In this document: positions 36,036-44,359 of the stretch, piece after piece
Layout of the letters: each line of letters begins with the position of its first letter
How positions within the stretch are numbered: the first letter of the stretch is position 1
Origin: Paenibacillus thiaminolyticus
GTDB lineage: Bacteria > Bacillota > Bacilli > Paenibacillales > Paenibacillaceae
NCBI RefSeq assembly: GCF_007066085.1
Contig: NZ_CP041405.1
Coordinates: 4,915,001-4,979,000 of the forward strand
Reading direction: 5' to 3'
Length of the DNA stretch: 64,000 bases
Position numbers and translations under genes: made by a program
The notes under the pieces: model-generated
Told to the model about the DNA's origin: nothing
The model's input: only the letters and a program-made list of their open reading frames with translations
The model's database searches: none

Positions 36036-36258
36036 CTGTTCGAAATTAAGGCTGATTGTCCAGCAGTCTACCTATTCCAAATAGGAAATACAAGCATATT
36101 TTATAGCATCAGCCGAAATAGATGACCTCCTGTTGATATTATGCCTATCATCGCGTTATGCATGTACCCTATCAAATCTCTTTATTTTGTTGTTACGGGT
36201 CATTGTTGCTTCATCACCTTCGGCAGAAATTTGAAGGGGAAAGGAATGAAGGGTGTTG

Positions 36259-36996
36259 ATGATGAGCGGTTATGAGAGAGTGATGAATGCCATTCGAGAC
36301 GTTGATCTGGCTGAAGTCGAAGTCAGATATAACTGCGGCCAAAAGCTAAAATTTGATTTGACGAAAAAGTATGACATCCTGAGTCAGGAGCTGTTAGAGC
36401 AATGGTTGAGCAATATCGAATGGGGACGAGTCGAGAAAGTGAAATGGAAAACGTGCAGCGGCGAAAAAACGACGATGTATATGCCGGGATGCGGCGGCAA
36501 GAGTCGTTGCCATAAGAGCAAGTATCATCATGACGGATGCAAATGCGAGAAGTGCAAGCCGAAGAATCATCACCATGACGGATGCAAATGCGAGAAATGC
36601 AAGCCGAAGCATCATCACCATGACGGATGCAAATGCGAGAAATGCAAGCCGAAGCATCATCATCATGACGGATGCAAATGCGAGAAATGCAAGAAGCACC
36701 ATCACCATGACGGATGCAAATGCGAGAAATGCAAGAAGCACCATCCCCATGATGGATGCAAATGCGAGAAATGCAAGCCAAAGCACCATCACCATGACGG
36801 ATGTAAATGCGAGAGATGCAAGCCGCATCATCACCACCGTGAATGCGATCCATGCAGACCCGATCCATGCTGCAGCTGCAACTCCGACCCGTGCTGCTGC
36901 AAGCCTCGGTTCGTATGGCGCGACCACGATCCTTATACGCGGTTCCAGCCGAAGCCGCAAATCCCGTATAAGCATTACCCGGCCGGTAATTGTTAA
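36259..36996 (+). CDS. His/Cys-repeat protein, putative metal-binding (spore or surface type)
   Basis: A 245-aa protein of unknown function. Residues 1-75 form a unique domain (ERVMNAIRDVDLAEVEVRYNCGQ). Residues about 85-195 consist of seven tandem repeats of 14-15 residues with consensus HHHDGCKCEKCKPKH. The tail is Cys/Pro-rich (CDPCRPDPCCSCN, DPCCCKPR). The His clusters and CxCxxC pairs suggest dense binding of Zn, Ni or Cu, like a storage or spore-coat protein. The repeats correspond to 42-45-bp DNA repeats. ATG 36259 is chosen; GTG 36253 and ATG 36262 are alternatives. No signal peptide is seen. Confidence 0.8.
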   Translation: MMSGYERVMNAIRDVDLAEVEVRYNCGQKLKFDLTKKYDILSQELLEQWLSNIEWGRVEKVKWKTCSGEKTTMYMPGCGGKSRCHKSKYHHDGCKCEKCKPKNHHHDGCKCEKCKPKHHHHDGCKCEKCKPKHHHHDGCKCEKCKKHHHHDGCKCEKCKKHHPHDGCKCEKCKPKHHHHDGCKCERCKPHHHHRECDPCRPDPCCSCNSDPCCCKPRFVWRDHDPYTRFQPKPQIPYKHYPAGNC

Positions 36997-39988: not shown

Positions 39989-41281
39989 TTATGCCAGCCC
40001 CAGCTTGCTCTCGATCTGCCAGATGGCCTCCTCCATGGTGATGACTGTCTCCGTCTGTTCGACCATGTCCTTGAGACGGAGCGCCCCGATGGCGGCCTCG
40101 CTCGCGCCGATAAGCAGCACGAAGCGAATTCGTTGGGATGCGGCGGAGGCGAGCGCTTTTTTGAGCTTCCGCCCGCTTGTATCCAGCGAGGTGCGAATCC
40201 CGCTGGCCCGAAGCGCGGCGGCGGTCCGGAGAACCTCAGGCAGGGTATCCCCGATCGCAATGACGACGGCCGGAGCGGGGGGCCTTGCAACCTGCCGCCG
40301 CGCAACTAATGCCATGATCGACTCCATGCCGAATGACAGCCCGACGGTAGGGCAGGCTGCATCCTGACGCCCGGTGAACTGGCCGATGATTGCGTCGTAT
40401 CTTCCGCCGGCGCCGAGGCTCGAGGTGAAGGTGCCCGACGCATCAAAAATTTCATATACGGTGCCGGTATAGAAAGACAGCCCGCGGGACAGGAACGGGT
40501 CGAAAACGCAGCTTGCCGCGAGCCCGGCCCCGTCGATAAGACGCTGCAGAGCGCGCACCTCGGATACGCCCTCCGACGATAGGAGGCCGTAAGCCGTGGC
40601 GAGCGAGTCGGCTGAGATCTCTTCTCTCTCCATTAGGGCCGCTATCGCCCCGGTTACCGCTGGTTCCAAGCCTTTGGCAAGCAGCTCGTCCTTGACCCCT
40701 TCTTTTCCGATTTTAGCAATCTTGTCGAGCGTCAGCATGACCGACAACGCCTCCCCGGCCGGGACGCCAATCGATTCCAGCAGTTCTCCGAGGAACCGCC
40801 GGTTGTTCCATTTTATCGTCACCGGGATCTCCAGGCGGCGGAACGCCTCGACGGCGAGCTGCATCAGCTCGGCCTCGGCTTCCGGCCCTGCAATGCCGAC
40901 GATATCGGCATCGCATTGCAGAAATTCCCGCAGCCTGCCCCGTTTCACTGGCCCGTCGCGGAACACTTTGCCGATCTCATACCGCTTATACGGCAGCTCC
41001 AGACCGGGATTCATCGCGATGACCTTGGCGAACGGGATCGTCAGATCATAGCGAAGCCCTAACTGCCGTTTCCCTTGATCGCTCAACCGGTACATTTCCT
41101 TCACAATTTCTTCCCCGCCGGCATATTTCGAGGCCAGTACATCAAGCTCATGCAAGATCGTGCTCTCCATCGCCTCGAAGCGGTACAGCTCGAACAGGTT
41201 CCGCAGCACGTCCTGCACTTGCTGGCGCGCCGCTTGCTCCGGACCGAAAAAATCATAAGTACCTTTTACATTTTGCATCAT
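39989..41281 (-). CDS. hisS: Histidyl-tRNA synthetase
   Basis: A 430-aa class II aminoacyl-tRNA synthetase that charges tRNA-His. Motifs visible are GTYDFFGPEQ, LGLRYDLTIPFAKVIA, RYEIGKVFRDGPVKRGRLREFLQCDADIVG (motif 2 with HisRS-specific RxREFxQCD), the HisA-like SRGLSFYTGTVYEIF, GAGGRYDAIIGQF and GLSFGMESI (motif 3). The C-terminal anticodon domain follows. The SRGLSFY and REFLQCD details suggest it may be a second, divergent HisRS and not the housekeeping one; that is inference. The start at 41281 (MMQNVKG) lies 6 bases after gggagg. Its leader has a His-codon peptide and terminator. Confidence 0.93.
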   Translation of the reverse strand: MMQNVKGTYDFFGPEQAARQQVQDVLRNLFELYRFEAMESTILHELDVLASKYAGGEEIVKEMYRLSDQGKRQLGLRYDLTIPFAKVIAMNPGLELPYKRYEIGKVFRDGPVKRGRLREFLQCDADIVGIAGPEAEAELMQLAVEAFRRLEIPVTIKWNNRRFLGELLESIGVPAGEALSVMLTLDKIAKIGKEGVKDELLAKGLEPAVTGAIAALMEREEISADSLATAYGLLSSEGVSEVRALQRLIDGAGLAASCVFDPFLSRGLSFYTGTVYEIFDASGTFTSSLGAGGRYDAIIGQFTGRQDAACPTVGLSFGMESIMALVARRQVARPPAPAVVIAIGDTLPEVLRTAAALRASGIRTSLDTSGRKLKKALASAASQRIRFVLLIGASEAAIGALRLKDMVEQTETVITMEEAIWQIESKLGLA

Positions 41282-41308
41282 ATCCATCCTCCCTTGTTCA
41301 TATGGAAA

Positions 41309-41345
41309 ATAAAAAACGCGCCGGACCTCTTGGTCCCGCGCGCCG
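41309..41345 (-). terminator. Intrinsic terminator in the hisS leader
   Basis: On the - strand the stem cgcgcgggacc / ggtccggcgcg is followed by TTTTTT and ends about 30 bases before the hisS start. It lies between the leader ORF and hisS, so it can attenuate hisS transcription. Confidence 0.8.
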
Positions 41346-41356
41346 GATATATGCCG

Positions 41357-41392
41357 CAGGGAGGCCAACGCGAATAGCGCTAGCCCTCCCTG
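41357..41392 (-). promoter_or_regulatory. hisS leader hairpin (candidate antiterminator region)
   Basis: On the - strand, cagggagggctagcgc pairs with gcgttggcctccctg. Part of the left arm (gctagcgc) can instead pair with gcgttagc, which covers the last codons of the leader peptide. This gives two mutually exclusive structures, as attenuators require. Confidence 0.55.
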
Positions 41393-41407
41393 ATAAGTTC
41401 AGGGGTG

Positions 41408-41455
41408 CTAACGCTTCTTGTGATGATGAAGTTGGTTCTGCTTGATTCGGTTCAT
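41408..41455 (-). CDS. hisS leader peptide MNRIKQNQLHHHKKR
   Basis: A 15-codon ORF with three consecutive His codons (CAT CAT CAC) near its end. A GGAGG site (41465-41469) lies 9 bases upstream of the ATG. It lies after a good promoter and before the leader hairpins of hisS. A run of the very amino acid whose tRNA is charged by the downstream gene is the classical mark of ribosome-mediated attenuation. Confidence 0.8.
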   Translation of the reverse strand: MNRIKQNQLHHHKKR

Positions 41456-41488
41456 GAGCAGGTTCCTCCATCGCAAGTAATATTACAG

Positions 41489-41517
41489 AGTATAGCGTAT
41501 GGGTTGGGAAAAAGCAA
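41489..41517 (-). promoter_or_regulatory. Predicted hisS promoter
   Basis: On the - strand: -35 TTGCTT (41512-41517), 17-base spacer, -10 TATACT (41489-41494). It is about 35 bases upstream of the leader peptide ATG. Confidence 0.6.
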
Positions 41518-42715: not shown

Positions 42716-44359
42716 CAATGTCATTAAGATAAGGCGTGGAAACCATAATCAAGCACAAGAGCAGGTTATCGAAAAGATAGCCCGCTCTTTTTTTGAAAGA
42801 AAATCAAGACTTAACAGGTAGATGGATATGTGTGGCGAAGACCCTTGAAACACGAGGAGGCCACGTCCATGAATGAGTATGCGAATTCGCTAAAAAAAAC
42901 GCTGACATCCCTCATACGAGAAATGGCAGCCGCACCAGCTCCTTATGTCAAAAACCCTGAAAAAGATTTTACCCGAAAGAAAAAGCTGCCCTTTGAAACG
43001 GTGATGCAACTCCTGATCTCCATGGGAGGGAACAGCCTATATAAGGAACTTTGGAATCACAAGGCTATGACGTAAACACCGCAACCACTTCCGCTTTTGT
43101 CCAACAGAGGAATAAAGTGCTGCCGTCTGCTGTGGAATTCTTGTTTCACGCATTTACGCAATCGGTTACGGATATCAAGGACTACCGAGGGTATCGGCTA
43201 CTTGCCGTTGACGGTTCGGATTTGCATATCGCAACTGACTCTGCGGACACGGACACCTATTTTCAAAGTCAACCGAACACGAAAGGCTATAACCTTCTGC
43301 ATTTGAACGCTGCCTATGACTTGTGCAACAGACTGTACGTGGATGCCATTGTTCAGCCACGAAGGTTATGCAACGAGGGAAGGGCGCTGGCTGCTATGGT
43401 TCACCGTTCTCCAATCAAGGGCAAAACCATTGTGATTGCCGATAGAGGTTATGAAAGTTACAACAATTTCGCGCATCTTGAACGCAAAGGGTGGAACTAT
43501 GTCATACGGGTAAAGGATTTGGATTCCAATGGTATTCTTTCGGGCTTGCGTTTGCCCTCTAGCGGAGAGTTTGATAGGAACGTTCATCTGACACTCACCA
43601 AAAAACAAACCAAAGAGGTCAAGGCTAATCCCGAGATTTACAAGTTCGTTCCTTCCACGTCAACCTTTGATTTTGGATTTGCATGAGAACTTGTTTTACC
43701 CGATTTCCTTTCGGGTGGTTCGTTTCGTCCTGCCGAGTGGCGCTTTTGAGACCGTCATTACGAATCTTACCGCCACGGATTTCCCACCGGGTGAAATCAT
43801 GTCAATGTATAACATGCGATGGGGCATTGAAACCTCATTCCGGGCATTAAAGTACACTGTCGGTCTGACGAATTTTCATGCAAAGAAACGAGAGTCCATC
43901 ACCCAGGAGATATTCGCAAGAATGATCCTGTACAATTTCGCTGAAATGATAACCTCGCACGTCGTCATTTCCCAAATGGAGAAACGGCACCCCCTATCAA
44001 GTTAACTTCACGGTTGCCGTTCACGTGTGTAGACACTTCCTGCGCTCAAGGGACGATGAACCCCCGCCTGATGTTGAAGCGCTGATTCGCAAAAACATTT
44101 TGCCGATTCGACCCATTCGCCCAGGGCAGCAGAATACGCGCAAAATACGCTACAAATCAGTGGTTAGCTTCGTCTATAGAGTAGCATAATTTGTTTCATA
44201 TGAACATTTTTTTAAGCGGATCATCCCTCCGCTTTGTTTGCTGTACACTTTTTTCCTTGCTTGTATACAAAAAAGAAACGGCACAGGGCTTTTTCCCATG
44301 CCGTTTCGGATTCCATTTTTATTTCCGCTCTTGTCTTGGAGCTAAACTTAATGACATTG
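42716..44359 (+). mobile_element. IS4-family insertion sequence (1644 bp, decayed)
   Basis: A complete insertion sequence outlined by 13-base perfect terminal inverted repeats (CAATGTCATTAAG at 42716-42728; CTTAATGACATTG at 44347-44359) and a 10-base target duplication. Its GC content is visibly lower than the surrounding genome. It contains one transposase reading frame broken into pieces. The right end also carries the hairpin gaaacggca / tgccgtttc. It is inserted between the coiled-coil gene and a palindrome-repeat block. Confidence 0.9.
42869..44189 (+). pseudogene. IS4-family transposase, frameshifted
   Basis: The pieces MNEYANSLKKTLTSLIREM, then QGYDVNTATTSAFVQQRNKVL, then LHENLFYPISFRVVRFVLPSG and finally FTVAVHVCRHFLRSRDDEPP cover a full DDE transposase in sequence order. 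At least three frame breaks occur (near 43070, 43680 and 44000). The DDE residues are recognisable: Asp in LLAVDGSDLHIA, Asp in VIADRGYESY, and Glu in RWGIETSFRALKYTVG (the IS4 YREK-type region). The stop is at 44189. It cannot make a full protein unless frames are recoded at each break. Confidence 0.88.

Follow-up and report, generated by a model that had tools for sequence, protein, structure and literature searches.

On the minus strand of the window (the whole 64,000-nucleotide stretch of the Paenibacillus thiaminolyticus genome that was analysed), a histidyl-tRNA synthetase (HisRS) gene is preceded by a short ORF with a run of His codons and by a terminator. Synthetase genes of Firmicutes are usually controlled by the T-box (RF00230), which senses tRNA directly and is not found in this leader. 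How, then, is this gene controlled? The best-supported reading, to which we give a probability of about 0.8, is that a ribosome-mediated transcription attenuator would make a second HisRS gene respond to uncharged tRNA-His. The initial annotation had raised such attenuation by a His leader, and both the His codons and the RNA pairing proved to be conserved in relatives.

A second HisRS gene and its leader

The gene had been named hisS. It does encode a HisRS (429 aa; TIGR00442 match of 311 bits; alternative start at the in-frame ATG at 41281), but one of the PRK12420 type, and a canonical hisS lies elsewhere in the same genome (TIGR00442, 509 bits, cut-off 287). Compared by sequence with solved structures, the product scored 183 bits with its best match, 6nhi, which we take to be a eukaryote-type HisRS, 172 bits with cytoplasmic HisRS, and 99 bits with 1htt/1kmm, presumably E. 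coli HisRS. The canonical gene has a T-box upstream (RF00230, 71.2 bits, E 2.4e-15), missed at gathering level (gathering score 93) but clear by E-value. Also elsewhere in the genome is hisZ (TIGR00443, 328 bits, cut-off 272), which hisG adjoins; its leader, as read, has no His run. Because the canonical hisS has its T-box and the PRK12420-type gene is separate, the finding concerns a HisRS paralogue, here called hisS* after PMC2965389.

Along the minus strand the order is TATACT, GGAGG, the leader ORF MNRIKQNQLHHHKKR, overlapping complementary segments, a GC-rich hairpin followed by six T, a Shine-Dalgarno sequence and hisS* (Table 1). The three adjacent His codons, the good ribosome site and the U6 terminator before the gene (41342..41311) are thus as first described. 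The promoter placed upstream held in part: a -10-like hexamer is there, but the -35 is poor. Simple consensus scanners gave neither promoter nor terminator in the window leader, because the -35 is poor and a G.G mismatch splits the terminator stem. Folding gave the leader a stability well beyond that of shuffled sequences (z -4.92, 0/200). The initial annotation saw no T-box here, and covariance search agrees: the window leader has no match to RF00230 at gathering level or down to E 10, and none to the Rfam His_leader (RF00514). A T-box here had been named beforehand as a result that would refute attenuation, and this check left the idea standing. The element matched no Rfam family at gathering level in the loci searched and none convincingly below gathering in the window; one T-box match in the Rfam search of a related locus is placed elsewhere in that locus, not on the element.

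Table 1. Features of the hisS* region, in window coordinates
Feature	Position	Strand	Remarks
hisS*, paralogous histidine--tRNA ligase	39989..41278	-	NCBIfam PRK12420, 561 bits, cut-off 540
hisS* Shine-Dalgarno GGGAGG	41288..41293	-	read in the sequence
U6 tract (T6)	41311..41316	-	all rows of alignment A1 have five or more T in a run
Terminator hairpin	41317..41342	-	s4 41332-41342, loop AAGA 41328-41331, s5 41317-41327; 11 positions per arm, one G.G mismatch
s3 CGCGTTGGCCTCCCTGCGG	41354..41372	-	pairs with s2 (predicted off) or with terminator arm, loop and 3' arm (predicted on, antiterminator)
s2 CAGGGAGGGCTAGCGCT	41376..41392	-	alternative partners: s1 together with the 5' arm of a small hairpin (41399..41403), or s3
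s1 AGCGTTAGC	41407..41415	-	overlaps the leader's last codons and stop; pairs with s2, with covariation
Leader peptide ORF MNRIKQNQLHHHKKR	41408..41455	-	reading frame ATG...TAG; intact in 77/80 related loci
His codons CAT CAT CAC	41420..41428	-	positions -6, -5, -4 from the stop; read in the leader ORF
Leader Shine-Dalgarno GGAGG	41465..41469	-	9 nt before ATG; best match TGGAGG, 5/6 to AGGAGG
-10-like hexamer TATACT	41489..41494	-	weak -35 TTGCTT 17 nt upstream

Elsewhere in the window, a 247-aa ORF (36253-36996, plus strand) with repeated KCKPKHHHHDGCKCE units lies some 3 kb away from the hisS* end; it is extremely rich in His and Cys and is possibly a heavy user of His-tRNA. Upstream of the hisS* region (42830-44005, plus strand), transposase-like ORFs in split frames (81, 211 and 112 aa; named by eye) look like a decayed insertion sequence.

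Conservation and covariation in the order

Leaders of relatives were aligned, as had been suggested, from 80 loci found in a contig scan by similarity to the window's HisRS; these are related loci and not a random sample. The element is present in 78 of them, with the leader ORF intact in 77 of these, and the 78 loci plus the window make up alignment A1 (79 rows). The leader of L074 is frameshifted, and L048 has neither leader nor attenuator. In L084 (Evansella) the leader contains SQLHHHI, the RNA is another one, and the terminator was not matched by the search pattern. Leader statistics refer to 78 leaders (loci plus window, L074 left out for its frameshift), L040, whose stop lies three codons further on, being counted from the CGT codon common to the others.

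Leader length is 14-20 codons in 76/78 (31 and 35 in the other two), and a -10-like hexamer stands 37-51 nt before the leader start in 76/78, a count that allows 13 variants and carries no chance estimate. Counted back from the codon before the stop, His occupies -6 in 69/78 leaders, -5 in 69/78 and -4 in 55/78; the pattern named beforehand as speaking against attenuation, loss of the His run under a conserved terminator, is therefore not what the relatives have. Tyr or Phe accounts for 38 of the 41 replacements of His at these three positions. The last eight codons hold one His codon in 4 leaders, two in 24, three in 46 and four in 4 (n = 78), and the four single-His leaders have Tyr or Phe instead. 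The codons CAT, CAT and CAC are themselves strongly kept across leaders, which argues for an additional constraint at the nucleotide level.

This conservation bears on two other readings. That the terminator merely sits between unrelated units, with no regulation, is extremely unlikely: a minus-strand ORF upstream does end immediately before the element, but the -10-like hexamer and leader ORF are kept across relatives, before hisS* in 78/80 loci, and the alternative pairings covary. A regulator that acts on the RNA independently of the peptide, through a ligand or a protein and with the His ORF incidental, would fit an RNA part better conserved than the peptide N-terminus. Frame and His codons are, however, kept in most of the 80 loci (ORF intact in 77), His-rich leaders persist on RNAs that read differently, and the element has no Rfam family match in the loci searched, so that we hold this to be very improbable.

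The initial annotation had paired gcgttagc with gctagcgc as an alternative stem overlapping the leader's last codons. This stem exists (41414..41407 with 41384..41377) and does overlap them, but it is not the antiterminator; it would free s3, which would then invade the terminator. In A1, s1:s2 is paired in 90.5% of cells, with 43 double-change cells, a number reached by 0/500 shuffles, and s3 with the terminator 5' arm and loop is paired in 97.1%, with 8 double-change cells, again reached by 0/500. For s3:s4, the number of pairs with double changes, 2, was matched by 38/500 shuffles. Matched changes in s3 and in the terminator loop occur in L009, L031 and L055. The s2:s3 helix is paired in 91.2% of cells, yet column shuffles show no excess covariation for it, and the terminator hardly varies. 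At one of its positions 38/76 distinct rows have a mispair, and that base is paired in the antiterminator in 76/76.

A tree of 76 hisS* proteins served to count independent changes; L074, L081 and L082 were left out of it as having no reading frame >300 residues. Column pair 86:121 changed 9 times and kept its pairing 9 times, 3 of them by double changes; pair 87:120 had 3 double compensations and 2 losses, and pair 36:58 had 6 double compensations but 16 losses. When duplex energies of own and swapped partners were compared, z was -8.6 for s1:s2, -7.7 for s2:s3 and -7.1 for s3:s4, against -3.1 to +2.7 for eight non-pairing control segment pairs. The pairings s1:s2 and s3:s4 covary among these loci, which were chosen by HisRS similarity. 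The leader accordingly has what is expected of an attenuator, a short Shine-Dalgarno-led ORF rich in codons for the relevant amino acid, followed by mutually exclusive helices of which one is an intrinsic terminator before the gene, although s2:s3 is without excess column covariation.

Predicted switching with a ribosome on the leader

In the proposed switch, s1, which overlaps the leader stop, and s3 compete for s2; the alternative partner of s3 is the 5' arm, loop and 3' arm of the terminator, which s4:s5 would form. When charged tRNA-His is plentiful, a ribosome would reach the stop and cover s1, s2:s3 would form, and the terminator would stop transcription. When it is scarce, the ribosome would wait at the first or second His codon, leaving s1 free to form s1:s2; s3, thus released, would invade the terminator and hisS* would be transcribed. 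For the window leader, untranslated RNA is predicted to be on.

Folding in both states, which the initial annotation had proposed, was done by constrained partition functions that give equilibrium estimates. The ribosome was represented by blocking the bases it covers, up to +14 of the P-site codon (its footprint), and the terminator arm was complete. For the window leader the predicted terminator probability is 0.006 when the ribosome is absent; with a ribosome whose A site holds His(-6) it is 0.003, at His(-5) it is 0.375, and from His(-4) through the stop codon it is 1.00 (footprint +14); the model thus predicts the terminator at the stop, and the antiterminator at the first His or with the ribosome absent. 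Footprints of +12 to +16 shift the switch point by one codon, and with +16 the terminator probability of the window leader has reached 1.00 by the His(-5) stall. Hand-drawn pairings make s3:s4 weaker than the terminator by a median of 6.4 kcal/mol, which had suggested that antitermination is obligatorily kinetic; this was rejected because the partition functions have the window's own leader switching at equilibrium, the 3' arm of the terminator being a further partner of s3.

Across A1, a ribosome at -3 to the stop gives a terminator probability >0.9 in 79/79 rows. At equilibrium, His(-6) in the A site gives <0.5 in 38/79 rows and >0.9 in 30/79, and absence of the ribosome <0.5 in 35/79 and >0.9 in 39/79. 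With these rows predicted to stay terminated at equilibrium, many copies would need kinetic antitermination. The model as a whole predicts hisS* to be on when the ribosome stalls at the early His codons and off once it has arrived at the stop. In it the third His comes too late to matter, which fits its being the one most often lost (55/78 vs 69/78).

These predictions also bear on the classical trp-type arrangement, in which the stalled ribosome masks s1 and the antiterminator forms thereby. It has a precedent in the E. coli trp and his leaders, where stalling masks the first segment; those leaders have regulatory codons, mutually exclusive hairpins and an intrinsic terminator, and are off when untranslated. 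Here, however, s3 competes with the terminator and covaries with the terminator loop, so that masking s1 favours the terminator, whose predicted probability is 1.00 with a ribosome at the stop; a trp-type order is quite unlikely. Unlike the E. coli leaders, the present element has five segments, a predicted terminator with the ribosome at the stop and, for the window leader, a predicted on state without translation.

A further reading leaves the RNA switch unchanged and changes the signal: the nascent N-Q-L-H-H-H-K-Q-R would arrest the ribosome, or ribosomes slowed by an antibiotic or a tRNA modification would stall, rather than ribosomes lacking His-tRNA. It would account for the conservation of residues that flank the His run (Q at -8 and R at -1), for the frequent replacement of His by Tyr or Phe, with single- or no-His versions (FYYH in L020 and L039, FYYY in L154), and for downstream NUDIX, HAD and DUF genes (see below) that are not obvious His genes. 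Yet R at -1 and the stop codon sit in s1, so RNA pairing explains their conservation; His runs recur before hisS* on other RNAs and with other flanks (QQHHHT, QLHHHH, TKHHHHH); and the single tyrS copy carries Tyr-Tyr. We consider an arrest peptide unlikely. The His, Tyr and Asn codons are all NAY (queuosine); queuosine sensing was set aside because Phe also replaces His.

For the attenuator responding to tRNA-His, computation gives the parts and their conservation, covariation in the two pairings s1:s2 and s3:s4, and switching as predicted for the window leader. That charging of tRNA-His is the signal is inferred from the codons and the gene, as are, by the model, the co-transcriptional timing and the biological role of hisS*. 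The drift to Tyr and Phe together with the non-His targets leaves room for a broader signal.

Copies before other genes, and precedents

When 246 genomes from the order were searched with a covariance model (R1), 111 had the element at an E-value of at most 0.01, and 15 of the 111 had two or three matches in sense orientation with E at most 1e-5; R1 matches in 104 genomes of one family repeat those already counted. We examined 126 R1 loci, leaving out about nine antisense shadows and seven weak matches and keeping the copies of the window, G022 and G105 apart. With downstream families assigned by Pfam and NCBIfam, hisS* is the nearest matched gene in 61; the others are NUDIX protein genes (23), short ORFs consisting largely of the HisRS anticodon domain (19), a 129-aa DUF (7, or 6 without L214, where a truncated hisS* lies between element and DUF gene), degenerate hisS (3), and tyrS, HAD and another ORF (1 each), with no clear assignment in 10. 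The 129-aa DUF gene itself matched nothing in Pfam or NCBIfam. By eye, the 10 include hisS* remnants in L140 and L134 and a distant DUF-like ORF in L170.

The leaders of these copies were read as well. His stands at -6, -5 and -4 in 21, 22 and 21 of 23 NUDIX leaders and in 5/5 DUF leaders that could be read; the anticodon-domain ORF leaders have His, Tyr and Phe at these positions in 18, 16 and 19 of 19. The tyrS leader (L161), a single case, has His-Tyr-Tyr; its gene is one of two tyrS genes in that genome, the other having a T-box motif. The leader stop is TAA instead of TAG in 21/23 NUDIX and 5/5 DUF copies, and in the model-fitted alignment A2 the s2 base matches this change (column pair 27:62: AU in 25 rows, GC in 11, one gapped). 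This alignment of 37 matches has 77 double-change cells (reached by 0/500 shuffles), but it leans to structure and holds two antisense matches. Own against swapped partners, for the 31 of 33 copies before other genes that could be segmented (L214 included), gave z -5.0 for s1:s2, weakly -2.8 for s2:s3, and -1.5 for s3:s4, not clear against controls of -1.4 to +1.0.

For folding and leader reading, 13 entries without a recognised leader or terminator were skipped. With a ribosome at the stop, the predicted terminator probability is >0.9 in 113/113 copies folded. With the -6 codon in the A site it is <0.5 in 34/57 hisS*, 20/22 NUDIX, 5/5 DUF, 19/19 anticodon-domain, 3/3 degenerate, 1/1 tyrS, 1/1 other-ORF, 0/1 HAD and 1/3 no-clear-assignment copies; the L214 copy does not switch. 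We see about an even chance that a module with the logic "ribosome at stop = off, no translation = on" was copied within Paenibacillales genomes before at least five gene families that would together form a tRNA-His-starvation regulon, re-addressed by swaps of leader codons such as Tyr-Tyr before tyrS.

Several loci merit separate description. The short ORF of L162, L175, L177, L178 and 15 more keeps the HisRS start and the anticodon-binding domain (PF03129 in L162) without the catalytic domain, and in these 19 loci it may be a kept protein, not just decay. By eye, L140, L214 and L134 have large internal deletions in hisS* just behind the attenuator, and hisS* seems prone to loss of its middle. 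In L154 (reverse complement, 300-430) the leader ends IFYYYMKR, with zero His, before an unassigned ORF. L184 (300-700), a weak R1 match of 31 bits, has a histidinol dehydrogenase gene (PF00815) after the leader MFQLDRNRAIQLHHHS, and its attenuator resembles by eye the type II hisS* leaders of another Bacilli family. Outside the order, L268 (G626) has a 137-bit copy of the element. Its leader is His-rich, and behind it come what may be a tiny remnant of hisS* and an ABC-F-like ATPase gene, whose product has the domains ABC_tran and ABC_tran_Xtn.

At the level of the class, PRK12420 matches with E no higher than 1e-120 come from 20/299 genomes; of these 12 belong to other orders than the window's, and a single genus supplies nine of the 12. 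A short His-rich ORF precedes hisS* in 12/12 of these (leaders with QQHHHT, GQHHHT, QQHHHG, QLHHHH, QLHHHD, TKHHHHH, HVHQH and QLHHI), and the RNA behind it reads differently in 11/12, G475 having the same RNA. Leaders of Evansella (L084) and of two other families read differently from the window's RNA. Persistence of the His codons while the RNA changes is the strongest argument for the codons as the sensor, with the caution that the 12 represent few lineages. Among five leaders of types II and III folded with a ribosome, only L251 (type II) switched, and its terminator probability is 1.00 without a ribosome, unlike that of the window leader. In the phylum-level search, inspected without the second PRK12420-like match of G134, the genes above cut-off in L085 and L088 have no comparable leader, and the His pairs near L085 look like upstream coding sequence.

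The initial annotation thought that such control of a HisRS gene would be unusual. It is less so than supposed: in 2010 Naville and Gautheret put forward, as a prediction for Bacillus, a His leader peptide before the hisS paralogue and hisZ, next to a hisS with a T-box (PMC2965389), so that a His leader before hisS* is, going by the main text of that paper, already known as a predicted kind. Their case shares with ours a HisRS paralogue beside a T-box hisS, a short ORF with a His run and a premature terminator. It was predicted for bacilli, and its main text does not contain "Paenibacillus"; relative to that text, we describe the RNA, how its segments are ordered and covary, and which other genes it precedes. 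The main text of PMC9413887 describes His attenuators in the B. cereus group, in Peptostreptococcaceae with Lutispora and in Erysipelotrichales, also Firmicutes and also with leader peptides of 3-5 His codons and a terminator/antiterminator; their targets are his biosynthesis operons, and "hisS" is absent from that main text. The uORFC-8-2 motif, a Cys leader before cysS in Rhodobacterales (reported in PMC8632094), similarly joins an aminoacyl-tRNA synthetase gene to a leader ORF of cognate codons, but for Cys and in alphaproteobacteria. Within the literature searched, an incomplete search that does not establish absence from print, the Paenibacillales element, its five-segment logic and its spread to genes other than hisS were not found, and these we offer as new.

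Leader-peptide attenuation is usually taught as proteobacterial and the T-box as the Firmicute solution; here a spare HisRS gene has a His leader in many genomes of one Firmicute order, and the window's genome retains a T-box for its regular HisRS. The element makes a sharp prediction, that loss of the leader start codon would turn hisS* on, and it is an example of a codon run outlasting the RNA around it. The copies before NUDIX, DUF, HAD and tyrS genes give poorly understood genes a testable induction signal.
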